64,000 bases of DNA from Poritiphilus flavus (GTDB lineage: Bacteria; Bacteroidota; Bacteroidia; Flavobacteriales; Flavobacteriaceae): assembly GCF_009901585.1 (NCBI RefSeq), contig NZ_WXYO01000002.1, forward strand, positions 714,769 to 778,768, given 5' to 3'. Shown here in pieces: positions 13,119 to 17,380 of the stretch (the stretch's first letter is position 1; every line of letters starts with the position of its first letter). The position numbers were made by a program, and so were the translations under genes. Under the pieces are notes generated by a model. The model ran no database searches, was not told the DNA's origin, and worked only from the letters and a program-made list of their open reading frames with translations.

Positions 13119-13676
13119 ATGAGGAAGCCCGTTTACACATATCCTGATTTTGTAAGCAGGATCGCACTGTATCAACAACCCGGCAAACGGTATTGGTTGA
13201 CCCTGACCGTTTGTGAACATATGGAGGAGGAATTGTGTGTTATCTTAAAAAATCCAAGCAGGGCGAACAGGGAGGTTTCAGACAAAACCGTTTATAATGT
13301 GGCCAGCTATATATACAGGAATAAAGAAAGATATGAGGAACTGCGCAATGTAGGGAAGGTAACTATTCTCAACCTGATTCCCTTTTATCAGACCTATTCG
13401 GATCGACTTCAACTCCACAGAAATGGCATAGCAGACCATAAAAACCTTAGTTTTATTGATAAGTTCAGTAAAAACTGTGACAAGGTGATCCTCGCCTGGG
13501 GAAATCATCCAAAAGGACTTTACGAGGAATACGAGGCTTTGAAAGAGGAGGTGAAAAACATATTGAGAAATAATGGGAATTCTCTCTTTTATGTGGATCG
13601 GCTGAGTTTGAGCGGAAACCCCAAACACGGGCAAGTGTGGGGATATCAGGATTCATTTTGCAAAATTTGGGTTTAG
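13119..13676 (+). CDS. DUF1643 domain protein
   Basis: This is a 185-residue soluble protein matching the DUF1643 pattern: CVILKNPSRANREVSDKTV (about 46-64), VTILNLIPFYQT (about 86-97), a conserved ILAWGNHPKG motif (about 125-134) and a C-terminal LSLSGNPKHG segment. The ORF starts 6 bp after the HxlR gene and is probably cotranscribed with it. The family has no established biochemical function; members are often encoded near phage or accessory genes, which is weak support for treating 12.7-16.0 kb as accessory. A 246-bp AT-rich gap (13677-13922) follows, in which I see no gene or clear promoter. Confidence 0.8.
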   Translation: MRKPVYTYPDFVSRIALYQQPGKRYWLTLTVCEHMEEELCVILKNPSRANREVSDKTVYNVASYIYRNKERYEELRNVGKVTILNLIPFYQTYSDRLQLHRNGIADHKNLSFIDKFSKNCDKVILAWGNHPKGLYEEYEALKEEVKNILRNNGNSLFYVDRLSLSGNPKHGQVWGYQDSFCKIWV

Positions 13677-13922
13677 ACTATTCTTTAAATAGCTAAAAAT
13701 TCTGCTGACTTTTTCAAAATCAACTCAATATTCCAATTGATTTACTATCCATTTCTCGTATTGGCCTAAGAAAAATCCATTTTTATTTTAGGAAAATATG
13801 TAATAGATTTATAGTAAGCAGATTAAGACGACATAACTTGAATTGTGGCATCAAATATGTCAAAGTCGTTATCTGTATTCCTGGTTCCCCCTTCACTCTT
13901 GGTACTCATTTAAATCAAAGTA

Positions 13923-15599
13923 ATGAGAATAAATATCTTGTCTGATAAGAAGGCGGAAGAAAAGAAAGACGCGCTGATAGTTTTTGTACATGGCTTTACA
14001 GGAGGGTCTGATACCTGGATTAGAAAGGATAATCTAAAGTCGATTTTAGATCACCTTCGAGATGATGAGGAGCTTTCAAAGAGTTATGACTTTGCTGTGG
14101 CCGAATACTTCACGAAAATCACCGACCTACTCGAAAAACCCTCCTGGATACTGGCAAAGTTATCCGGTCGTAAGAAGAAGCTACATAAGAATATAGACAT
14201 CAATGGGATTTCCCAAATGCTACAGTCCGAAATAAGGTACCGTTGTAAAGAATACAAAACAATCGTACTGGTGGCCCATAGCATGGGAGGATTAGTTTCA
14301 AAGTCCTATATATTAGGTGAGATCGACGCTTTCGAAAGGGGCAAGATAAACACCGCCTTGCCAATACAACTCTTTATTTCGCTTGCTGTTCCTCATCGTG
14401 GAGCTACTTTAGCTTCCTTTGGAAAGATGGTCGCCGGAAACCCTCAAATCAGGGACCTTGATCCTTTATCATCAATTGTTACCGAAATGAACGACAAATG
14501 GGTTGAATTCTCCCGATTCGTACCTGAAACCCTATATTTTCAAGGGAAACAAGATCAAATTGTGCCCGATACGGCAACGGTAGGTAATGAAGGCAGAAAT
14601 CCTGAAGTTATATATACTAATGACGACCATTTCTCAATTGTTACAACCGGAATTGACGATATTGTGGTTGAGGTGATAAAGGACCGTTGTAAGTCTCTTC
14701 TACAGCAAAACAGTAGTAGCACATCAACTAAGCAATCCCAAACCGTAGCCAATAAAACACAACTAAAAGATCCTGCCAAACCTGGTTCCGATACGAAGGA
14801 AAAACCTAGTGAAACGACATATGATTTTGTCTTTGACTTTAACTCCCGATTCAAAGCAAATGGAATTACCGTGGCGGACGTTATAAATAAGTTGGATAGC
14901 AAAAACCTTGACAAGGATTTTTTAATTCAGTGGTCTCCGGAATTATGGGAAGCCAAAAAAGCCTGTGAATCGGTCTATGAGGAGGTTAAGAATCACCTAA
15001 AAGAAAGTTCAATATTCTTTAATCAAAAAGAAGAAACAATAGAAAGTCTGGTAAGTTATATCCCCAGTGCACTCAGGGGTGCCGAAAGTATTATGGAAGG
15101 GGCTGCTGAAAGAATTCCAAAACTTATCAAGGGGATGAGCTTCGAAAGGCAGGGAACTCTGGGATGTAAGGTCTCGTTGATAAATTTCCTTAGCCATTGC
15201 AATATTAAGGCCCTTGAAACTTTATGCTATCCACTTACCTTTAATTTGCTCGAAAATACGGACTACCATTACAAGAGTATTGTGGCTCAATTCCCTGATG
15301 AGATCTTTAGTACGGTTGGATTTTATCATTATGTATACAACTTGGATAAAGAGGCTATGGAGTCAGTTTCTCTTTACTCCCTAAAAGATCCGGAAGGAGT
15401 GGCACTTGCGAATGTCAAATATGGACTAACTGTAGTGGGTAACAAAGCATCCTTGGATAATAAAGACCACAACTATAAGTTCTACGATCAGGTGTTTGTT
15501 CCTCAAATAGAATTTCAAATGATAGGCAAACCTGAAACGGTTAAATACGATCTGGATCGTAAAATTTACATGAAGGAACATAGATCACCTTGTTATTAG
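13923..15599 (+). CDS. Lipase-like alpha/beta hydrolase with uncharacterised C-terminal domain
   Basis: This is a 558-residue soluble protein. Residues 15-255 form a PGAP1/SERAC1-like (DUF676 group) alpha/beta hydrolase: oxyanion segment FVHGFTGG at 21-28, nucleophile elbow AHSMGG with Ser120, PHRG at 157-160, likely acid Asp211 (QDQIVP) and His236 (DDHFSIV). A Ser/Thr/Lys-rich linker runs from about 262 to 300. Residues 300-558 begin YDFVFDFNSRFKANGITV, continue through helical segments, and match nothing I recognise. There is no signal peptide or TM helix, so it should act in the cytoplasm. It stands alone between AT-rich gaps. Similar hydrolase plus sensor-like C-terminus layouts occur in conflict systems, but no partner gene is present, so that role is only a possibility. 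Confidence 0.85.
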   Translation: MRINILSDKKAEEKKDALIVFVHGFTGGSDTWIRKDNLKSILDHLRDDEELSKSYDFAVAEYFTKITDLLEKPSWILAKLSGRKKKLHKNIDINGISQMLQSEIRYRCKEYKTIVLVAHSMGGLVSKSYILGEIDAFERGKINTALPIQLFISLAVPHRGATLASFGKMVAGNPQIRDLDPLSSIVTEMNDKWVEFSRFVPETLYFQGKQDQIVPDTATVGNEGRNPEVIYTNDDHFSIVTTGIDDIVVEVIKDRCKSLLQQNSSSTSTKQSQTVANKTQLKDPAKPGSDTKEKPSETTYDFVFDFNSRFKANGITVADVINKLDSKNLDKDFLIQWSPELWEAKKACESVYEEVKNHLKESSIFFNQKEETIESLVSYIPSALRGAESIMEGAAERIPKLIKGMSFERQGTLGCKVSLINFLSHCNIKALETLCYPLTFNLLENTDYHYKSIVAQFPDEIFSTVGFYHYVYNLDKEAMESVSLYSLKDPEGVALANVKYGLTVVGNKASLDNKDHNYKFYDQVFVPQIEFQMIGKPETVKYDLDRKIYMKEHRSPCY

Positions 15600-15745
15600 G
15601 GCTTACCTTAATAAGGAAATCTTTGTATACAATTTTATTTGCTTCAATTAAAATTTGTACTTTTATCTACCTGATTTGCTTCCCCGAACAGTAGAAACGG
15701 CCCTGGCCCCTGGCTAGTTGGGACCTTTAAAATTGTGTTTGCCCT

Positions 15746-15970
15746 ATGAAGAATACATATTTTAATACCCTGTATCTGCTTGCTCTGATCCTTTTAGGAT
15801 TACTCTTTTTTCTCAGTATTTCGCGGGATGCTGCAGCAGAGGGAACTTATTCCGATATCGGTTATACCATAAGCCCCTGGGGGGTTGTCATTGGTGGTTT
15901 GCTGATAATTATGTTACTGATGTACTTCCAGGTTCGCAAAAAGTTCAGAAACCGATTCCCCAAATCCTGA
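15746..15970 (+). CDS. Small membrane protein, two TM helices
   Basis: This is a 74-residue protein with an N-terminal hydrophobic helix (YLLALILLGLLFFLSI, about 10-25), a short extracytoplasmic loop containing EGTYSDIGYTISPWG, a second helix (VVIGGLLIIMLLMYFQ, about 51-66) and a basic cytoplasmic tail RKKFRNRFPK. I do not recognise a named family. The basic tail and clean two-helix topology support a real gene. Upstream DNA contains TTTG (15648) and TACTTTTA (15660), a weak promoter match. It converges with the amidohydrolase gene 36 bp away. Confidence 0.65.
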   Translation: MKNTYFNTLYLLALILLGLLFFLSISRDAAAEGTYSDIGYTISPWGVVIGGLLIIMLLMYFQVRKKFRNRFPKS

Positions 15971-16006
15971 AGACCCCTTCAGATATCCCCTGGGATACCG
16001 GATGGC

Positions 16007-17380
16007 CTAATTCTTTTCAGCATTTTTGGCGATTTGAGCCAGTTTCGAGTCTATATGTGATCTACTGAGCCAGGTACCCCTTACCATTACACCTATGGGT
16101 TCTTTGAGTGCAGAAAGATCAGTCAAAGGGTTACTATTGATTATGAATAGGTCGGCAGACTGTCCAACGCCAATCTCTCCGAATTCCCCTTCCTTCTCAA
16201 AGAAGATAGCTGGATTAATGGTCCCGGACTGCAATATCTGCAATGGTGTTAGACCCGCATCCAGCATTCCCTGAATTTCGTGATGTATGGAAAAACCTGG
16301 AACATTAAAGAGTTGTGGGGCATCAGAACCCAAAAGCATGCCGTAGCCGTTTTCCTGAAGTCGGTTGATCAGCCGTTTTCTTATTTCATCAAATTTCTTC
16401 CATTGTTCTGGACTAAAATTTTCATCCGCCATATACTCCCGTTTAACGCGTTCCCAATTAGCAAGGGTGGTCTTGGGCATGTACTTCATTTCGGGTTGTG
16501 CTAATAATTCTTCAACCCCAACCGGGGCGAACCATCGTTCAAAAAGACTTTGGGTAGGGACTATCCAGACTTTATTGGCCTTGGTCATGGCTACCAATTC
16601 GTCAATTTTCTCCGGATCCGCCAAAGGGGTGAAGTTGTATCCGAAAAACCCGTTTGCTGCCGGGTTCACATTCTCGGACTCTGGTACCAGACCCTCCAGA
16701 TAACCATCCACATGATCGATAGAGGCGTATTGACTCTCAAGAGCATGCCTTATACCAACAGCCACAGGAACGTGTCCGGAGAATCTAATTCCTACTTCGT
16801 TAGCTGTGGCAACTAATTCGTCAAAGACATTCAAAAGAATGCCAGGATGTATTTTTAAAAAGTCATAGCCGTCCTTTTGAAATGCGGTTACTTTGGTTCT
16901 TGCCTCTTCTGGTGTGCGGACGGTTAATCCGTTAAGCGACGGACTGGAAGTAAAGATCCGTGGGCTTAGCAATTCCCCTGCTGCTGCCTTAGAACGCATC
17001 TCAAGATGAGAAGGGTGTCCAAGCATTCCTCTAATAGTAGTTACTCCGTTAGATAGGTAAAGGAAAAGTACCTCTTCAATACGCTCTTGGGAGGTGTTGG
17101 GAGATGGAATATGCGCGTGCATTTCAGCAAGCCCGGGGACCGCAAATTTACCTGTCCCGTCTATGGTCTCCTTAAATTTTGTCGCGTCCTCAACGGACTG
17201 TTCTATGGCCATGATCTTACCGGAATCTATAATAATATTCCTGTTTTCCCGTATTACACCATTCCTGACATCAACAATATTGATATTAGATATTAGAATT
17301 CCTTTTGGGTTCGATTTTTCCTGGGCCTGATTACAAGAAATGACTATCAGCCCGATGAATAAGAGTGCTAACTTTTTCAT
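16007..17380 (-). CDS. Amidohydrolase-family lipoprotein
   Basis: This is a 457-residue metal-dependent hydrolase of the amidohydrolase superfamily (imidazolonepropionase/prolidase-like group). The signal peptide has a lipobox ending at Cys16 (LIVISC), so the enzyme is lipid-anchored outside the cytoplasmic membrane. Superfamily metal motifs are AEMHAHIP, followed later by a probable bridging Lys (FLKIHPG), His in SGHVPV, His in IDHVDG and Asp in LLGSDAPQ. The composite domain strands flank the barrel (ISNINIVDVRNGVI at the N-terminus and GVGQSADLFIINSNPL at the C-terminus). The substrate is unknown; relatives hydrolyse Xaa-Pro peptides or cyclic amides. It lies 17 bp downstream of the YdeI-like gene on the same strand. 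Confidence 0.9.
   Translation of the reverse strand: MKKLALLFIGLIVISCNQAQEKSNPKGILISNINIVDVRNGVIRENRNIIIDSGKIMAIEQSVEDATKFKETIDGTGKFAVPGLAEMHAHIPSPNTSQERIEEVLFLYLSNGVTTIRGMLGHPSHLEMRSKAAAGELLSPRIFTSSPSLNGLTVRTPEEARTKVTAFQKDGYDFLKIHPGILLNVFDELVATANEVGIRFSGHVPVAVGIRHALESQYASIDHVDGYLEGLVPESENVNPAANGFFGYNFTPLADPEKIDELVAMTKANKVWIVPTQSLFERWFAPVGVEELLAQPEMKYMPKTTLANWERVKREYMADENFSPEQWKKFDEIRKRLINRLQENGYGMLLGSDAPQLFNVPGFSIHHEIQGMLDAGLTPLQILQSGTINPAIFFEKEGEFGEIGVGQSADLFIINSNPLTDLSALKEPIGVMVRGTWLSRSHIDSKLAQIAKNAEKN

Follow-up and report, generated by a model that had tools for sequence, protein, structure and literature searches.

A Lamassu-type lipase-like hydrolase outside Lamassu, joined to an unrecognised C-terminal half, in Poritiphilus flavus

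Lamassu effectors of the LmuA type consist of an N-terminal enzyme and a C-terminal domain that is thought to dock the SMC-like LmuB and LmuC. An alpha/beta hydrolase is listed among these effectors (PMC10586767), and activated LmuA is described as being freed, forming a homo-tetramer and switching on its Cap4 nuclease domain (PMC12409362, drawing on three preprints). The hydrolase itself and its joining to CTD8 (PF20284), to SAVED and to other control domains are already known; what is new here is a Lamassu-type effector that stands outside Lamassu and carries an unrecognised second half. No published description of a stand-alone LmuA was recognised in a limited literature search, outside which most subscription journals lay, and this is not proof that such a protein has gone unreported.

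The window, by which we mean the whole stretch of 64,000 nucleotides of P. flavus DNA analysed, contains the gene as an intact open reading frame on the forward strand (13923-15599), with an ATG start and 558 codons plus a stop. The gene, its parts and its nearest surroundings are as follows.

13119-13676, + strand: DUF1643 gene, 246 bases apart from the gene and probably outside the system (PF07799, 2e-18)
13677-13922, + strand: AT-rich upstream gap, presumed promoter region (GC 0.297)
13923-15599, + strand: the complete gene for the 558-aa protein, hydrolase and unknown C-terminal half together (open reading frame list)
13923-14720, + strand: LmuA-type lipase-like alpha/beta hydrolase, residues 1-266 (PADLOC LmuA, DUF676, pLDDT)
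14280-14282, + strand: codon of Ser120, presumed nucleophile in HSMGG (invariant in 13 aligned rows)
14553-14555, + strand: codon of Asp211 (invariant in 13 aligned rows)
14628-14630, + strand: codon of His236 (invariant in 13 aligned rows)
14709-14822, + strand: Ser/Thr/Lys-rich linker, residues 263-300 (composition, low pLDDT)
14823-15596, + strand: C-terminal half without known relatives, residues 301-558 (family and relative searches, models)
15746-15970, + strand: 74-aa hydrophobic open reading frame of no family, 146 bases downstream (open reading frame list)

By sequence, this is an LmuA-type hydrolase. The PADLOC LmuA model matches it at 6.1e-25, with residues 14-280 lying on positions 7-205 of the 343 in the model, so that the match comprises the effector part of LmuA without the model's end. 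Identity is 40% with the LmuA of genome G257 over window residues 16-273 and 32-40% with 12 aligned LmuA rows, and the similarity stops at about residue 273. Columns invariant among LmuAs are kept, including the complete triad that an earlier note on this DNA had claimed: Ser120, Asp211 and His236 are all in place and invariant in 13 of 13 rows, the window protein plus 12 LmuA domains. That note had also placed the protein among hydrolases that are fused to sensor domains in conflict systems, which stands, docking domains being further partners of the group, but it had overlooked the kinship with LmuA. Pfam names DUF676 (9.4e-11, residues 13-164) and PGAP1 (6.5e-7), and the alpha/beta hydrolase fold and Ser-Asp-His triad typical of such lipase-like hydrolases are present. 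The predicted hydrolase has pLDDT blocks of 71-95, except for 47-59 at residues 61-90 and 57 at 161-170. Comparison of the full-length model by VIA-align retrieved the BlEst2 lipase (6wpx_A, Z 22.1, rmsd 2.8, 208 aligned), the phospholipase PlaB (6zth_B, Z 22.0, rmsd 2.6, 211 aligned) and Candida lipase B entries at 18-20, and a sequence-profile search of the PDB at 1e-3 gave two matches, the putative lipase 7x2p (3.4e-9) and BlEst2 (1.1e-6). DUF676/PGAP1 proteins, BlEst2- and PlaB-type lipases and phospholipases thus have the fold and triad in common with the window protein, whereas the matches to the BlEst2/PlaB type concern essentially the hydrolase (mainly residues 1-263 of a model whose tail is of low confidence) and say nothing of the tail. 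Its likeliest substrate would be a lipid or another ester, a choice that the structural matches to lipases leave unfixed.

Relatives of the hydrolase were drawn from whole genomes, plasmids (H1, H2, H3, H4, H6, H7, H8 and H10 examined, eight of 12 records), species genomes (at least 50 loci) and viral contigs (17 loci). When loci were scored against one pool of open reading frames, the top set, at 79 bits or more, held at least 23 loci, and among the matches listed 21 of the 23 were Lamassu/ABC-3C operons (L013-L019, L079-L090, G257/L009 and CP125156/L004), L005 and L100 being the exceptions. All 21 of these listed operons have LmuB and a CTD8-like domain, called by Pfam in L009 (3.5e-40) and elsewhere by similarity to L009, and 19 of them have LmuC, which the test used did not find in L087 and L090; near-copies occur among them (L079-L082 are alike, as are L083, L085, L088 and L089), and the LmuA frame is broken in L019 and L088. 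Seven of the at least 50 species-genome loci reached phmmer 5e-23 or better, each with CTD8-like, LmuC and LmuB genes, and LmuB with a CTD8-like domain was found in 12 of the 17 viral-contig loci, ten of those 12 having LmuC. In the Catenovulum operon (L019:3104-4352), LmuA is split over three frames and the LmuC and LmuB reading frames are full-length; the record of L004 (CP125156.1), a 'Klebsiella plasmid' of 5.37 Mb, is probably a mislabelled chromosome.

With the LmuA of Lamassu the window protein has in common the hydrolase domain, the triad and a similar domain boundary, its linker setting in near the point at which a true LmuA passes into CTD8 (263-389 in that of G257/L009), but it differs in having neither CTD8 nor adjacent LmuC and LmuB, and in possessing a linker of about 38 residues and another, longer C-terminal half. 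Pfam finds no ABC-3C C-terminal domain in it at E up to 10. The CTD8 model scores the window tail at -1.1 bits, a value that 115 of 156 reported shuffles (200 made) also reach, whereas two true CTD8 domains kept out of the model obtain 188.3 and 176.4; hhalign aligns CTD8 with the tail at a probability of 0.1%. In the organism's own genome, which comprises 19 contigs and is listed as 100% complete, the best protein match to LmuB has E 0.0235 with stops inside, and an LmuB family model that rings in 13 of 14 control genomes finds nothing at E 0.01. A neighbourhood search for LmuC drew no match in the ten genes around or in the DUF1643 gene, Pfam recognises neither SAVED (E up to 10) nor NACHT nor any further P-loop family in the window protein, and the neighbours include no cyclic nucleotide synthetase gene. 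None of ten genes picked around the locus has a PADLOC match at E 1e-3; the absence of a second component nearby, reported in the earlier note, is thereby borne out, and no recognised defence island was seen in the same ten.

Remoter relatives carry other control domains: SAVED in L072 (5e-28) and L073 (4e-30), CTD5 in L024, TPR in L076 and a NACHT-like stretch in L071 (23.3 bits, under the cut-off of 26.7), a variety that marks the hydrolase as a widely reused effector module. On the Priestia plasmids of L072 (1134-6452) and L073 (1010-6437), the hydrolase-SAVED gene is divergent from nucleotidyltransferase, ThiF and Mov34 genes, SMODS having been scored in L072 only, and these loci are CBASS-like with a lipase-like effector. 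They resemble the window gene in that such a hydrolase is followed by a control domain (a presumed one in the window protein), whereas the window protein has neither their SAVED domain nor nucleotidyltransferase, ThiF and Mov34 genes nearby. The L071 and L076 proteins, like that of the window, unite the hydrolase type and a second half in a single chain, but their second halves resemble known families. The L071 gene (5001-6416), on a Niallia plasmid, lies beside a Tn3 transposase and its end looks short, and L074 lies upstream of genes annotated as an ABC-three-component system. Elsewhere, a 733-aa protein of a relative (L008:652-2853) has a stretch ahead of the hydrolase that by eye resembles a caspase domain; L011:2929-6839 includes a bare hydrolase of 275 aa (PADLOC LmuA 5.9e-15), with upstream genes that by eye resemble those of a cytosine methyltransferase and a ParB-like protein; and in the 479-aa hydrolase of L101:1492-2931 the C-terminal half likewise goes unnamed by Pfam at 1e-3, though it differs from the window tail.

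Composition (18% S, 18% T and 16% K in residues 263-300) and entropy (the lowest-entropy 40-mers of the protein start at residues 257-261) both agree with the low-complexity linker that had been described earlier. The roughly 258 residues beyond it match no family, as had also been claimed: for residues 260-558, Pfam yields two matches, both under cut-off, and PADLOC and NCBIfam none, and residues 293-558 match no PHROG. One Pfam candidate on the tail, Wx5_PLAF3D7, was rejected at 17.9 bits against a cut-off of 25. Searches with the tail brought up no convincing relative among 296, 397 and 395 genomes drawn, with overlap, from the phylum, family and class, nor did searches of 60, 395 and 395 genomes with the full-length protein, of plasmids and phages, or of species genomes and viral contigs by peptide patterns, the last being a method that requires exact short peptides and may let distant relatives escape. 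Weak matches outside the own genome numbered one, five and two in phylum, family and class (E 4e-4 to 8e-3). They were judged from four reading frames, named by eye and each dismissed as a chance match: those in L003, L065, L064 and L077 resemble an M14 peptidase, a subtilase, exonuclease III and an ABC permease, respectively. The matched stretch of L066 and L067 is common with L064, in a frame of similar length, and that of L078 is common with L077. Plasmids gave ten matches at E 2-9, of which H13 and H18 were examined and both dismissed. Against six hydrolase proteins of L071-L076, blastp of the tail gave nothing better than E 0.14, and against PDB sequences a single row at E 1.9. The whole protein finds only itself in its own genome at E 1, and the tail occurs there only once at E up to 10, an argument against its being coupled to partners by a shared EAD-type domain in the manner described in PMC7159879.

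For residues 293-558, AlphaFold without relatives reached a pLDDT of 35. The full-length model, made with 13 rows, has blocks of 26-36 in the linker (residues 271-310), block means of 48-65 for residues 311-440, which are mostly helices, and 28-47 beyond residue 440, with helices to about 484 and strands thereafter. Neither prediction amounts to a usable model of the tail; the second offers no more than a hint of a helical bundle with a strand-rich end after it, and its structural comparison brought out no fold for this half. A lid or transport domain of known type, which would have told against the earlier reading, was not recognised in the tail.

Our preferred reading, to which we assign a probability of roughly 0.45, is that of a single protein that acts alone as an effector of defence or cell suicide, has the Lamassu (ABC-3C) effector domain as its base and is equipped with a private control domain; in it we infer descent from LmuA itself, enzymatic activity, the substrate, the role in defence and the role of the new half. 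The linker would tie a hydrolase of the LmuA kind, without CTD8 and partners, to a domain of its own, about 258 residues long, that presumably replaces docking. Most likely, this new half would either sense an infection cue or keep the hydrolase silent and assemble it upon a trigger, and the freed hydrolase would attack an ester or thioester of the cell, a membrane lipid being the most plausible target, whereupon the cell would be stopped or killed. The more elaborate version, by which a Lamassu effector parted from its SMC sensor and became fused to a new infection-sensing domain that switches on a membrane-attacking lipase as one-protein immunity, strikes us as doubtful. The main weakness of the case is that the tail is known from one genome, and the tail could be a lineage-specific extension without a sensing role.

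The main rival to a working one-protein effector is a functionless remnant, an orphaned or decaying Lamassu effector that lost LmuB and LmuC, whose C-terminus either gave way to unrelated coding sequence or drifted until it could no longer be recognised, and that has no present defence role. An LmuA-type hydrolase whose partners are missing, a tail from a single genome and an end branch of 1.02 against a median of 0.5 in the 24-row tree are all what decay would leave, but the reading frame is intact, and neither the triad nor any column invariant among LmuAs has been lost. The tail itself looks coding from its sequence: its frame is the sole one free of stops (none, against 9-28 in the other five), and it keeps a codon-position GC pattern (0.458/0.298/0.385). 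We therefore regard decay as unlikely.

Where the hydrolase came from was approached with trees from which L019, the broken LmuA, was absent and in which near-copies were used in part. In the 24-row tree the window protein stands beside the LmuAs of L009, which is from its own family, and of L013 and L014, both from Bacteroidota (support 96/92), and in the 20-row tree beside three LmuAs (97/94); L010, L011 and L005 were left out of both as long branches, and the SAVED rows also of the second. With all 25 rows the grouping of window and LmuAs has 92/15. In topology tests picked after the trees were seen, an LmuA clade without the window protein received p-AU 0.0298 with 20 rows and 0.0235 with 24, the constraint in the latter case keeping the SAVED rows outside as well. 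These results stand beside those from L005, on a Hymenobacter plasmid (112 bits), and L100, in a genome of the window's class (97.5 bits), hydrolases of 34-37% identity which, like that of the window, lack any LmuB, LmuC or CTD8-like match in their locus DNA. The two loci show a recurring pair (L005:616-2015, L100:1474-2842), a hydrolase of 343-352 aa followed directly by a small Cys-rich gene (122 aa in L005, 100 aa in L100, with similar beginnings), in which Pfam names the hydrolase alone. By eye, an ATPase-like gene lies upstream of the module in L100, and the start of the L005 plasmid carries, by annotation, genes for type I restriction and for a PDDEXK nuclease, together with a hypothetical gene.

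The window gene might accordingly belong with L005 and L100 to a separate line of stand-alone hydrolases that was never Lamassu, its tail being the counterpart of their short domain plus second gene. In a 22-row tree that includes both but leaves aside L010, L011 and the SAVED rows, topology tests, again picked after trees had been seen, do not reject any of three clades, namely the window protein with L005 and L100 (p-AU 0.354), LmuA alone (0.0927) and LmuA with the window protein (0.182), and this tree makes a weaker case for descent from LmuA. In the best tree, however, L005 and L100 group together (100/100) apart from the window protein, which again lies beside LmuAs (88/92); the two modules differ, moreover, in having a C-terminal domain of about 90 residues and the Cys-rich gene next to it, and no such gene was seen adjoining that of the window. 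We consider a separate line improbable, and on the sequence evidence the window hydrolase probably, though not certainly, descends from an LmuA.

The surroundings bear on whether the protein is instead an ordinary, lineage-specific metabolic lipase or esterase with a helper domain. Its neighbours are F420_oxidored, DJ-1, HxlR, DUF1643, the 74-aa unknown, an amidohydrolase and OmdA, those of named family looking metabolic or regulatory, and with the DUF676/PGAP1 kinship and lipase fold they would suit such an enzyme. Against it, Lamassu effectors make up 21 of the 23 best-scoring relatives among the matches listed, and the distribution is patchy: 59 of 60 genomes have no match at 1e-5, the one match being in the own genome, and, besides the own genome, three of 395 genomes match at 1e-6 and three of 395 at 1e-10 in a second sample, none of these matches reaching far into the tail. 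The fixed housekeeping context that would have spoken against the earlier note's suggestion was not seen in this survey, in which the own genome was the one match among 60 at 1e-5, and a metabolic lipase seems to us as improbable as the separate line. The locus is AT-rich and isolated, as that note had it, if mildly so: GC (0.397) and GC3 (0.394) of the gene are the lowest among 33 window genes compared, window GC being 0.445 and that of the upstream gap 0.297, and its codon-usage z of 3.0 is equalled or exceeded by three other genes. Scans of a kind ill suited to Bacteroidota found no sigma-70-type site in the upstream gap and no terminator within 13600-16050. Only one of 39 other relatives, G018, has the amidohydrolase at 1e-60; it keeps the right-hand genes at 65-74% identity, with other reading frames between two of them, and in the 18 kb compared neither HxlR nor DUF1643 nor the hydrolase has a match, which probably places the gene in a variable stretch.

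That the protein is a toxin with its antidote encoded next to it, by either the 74-aa hydrophobic frame or the DUF1643 gene (whose identity had been correctly called), is much less probable again: the 74-aa frame lies on the same strand 146 bases downstream, but gaps of 246 and 146 bases separate the gene from the two candidates, no toxin-antitoxin family was matched, and neither of the two recurs in the other loci compared, where there is a single weak match (E 0.0048) beyond the own-genome copies and the DUF1643 gene has no phmmer relative in L004-L095. That the protein is a genuine Lamassu LmuA working with LmuB and LmuC encoded elsewhere in the genome is hardly credible, since, for all its LmuA-type effector domain, it has no CTD8, and in its genome, listed as 100% complete, no LmuB was found by protein or family.

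A match to the LmuA model does not by itself mean that a Lamassu system is present. If the reading as a one-protein effector is right, Lamassu-type effectors would be able to function outside Lamassu, the P. flavus protein would offer a natural test of the role of the docking domain in keeping the enzyme silent, and its second half would point to an unrecognised sensor or control domain.
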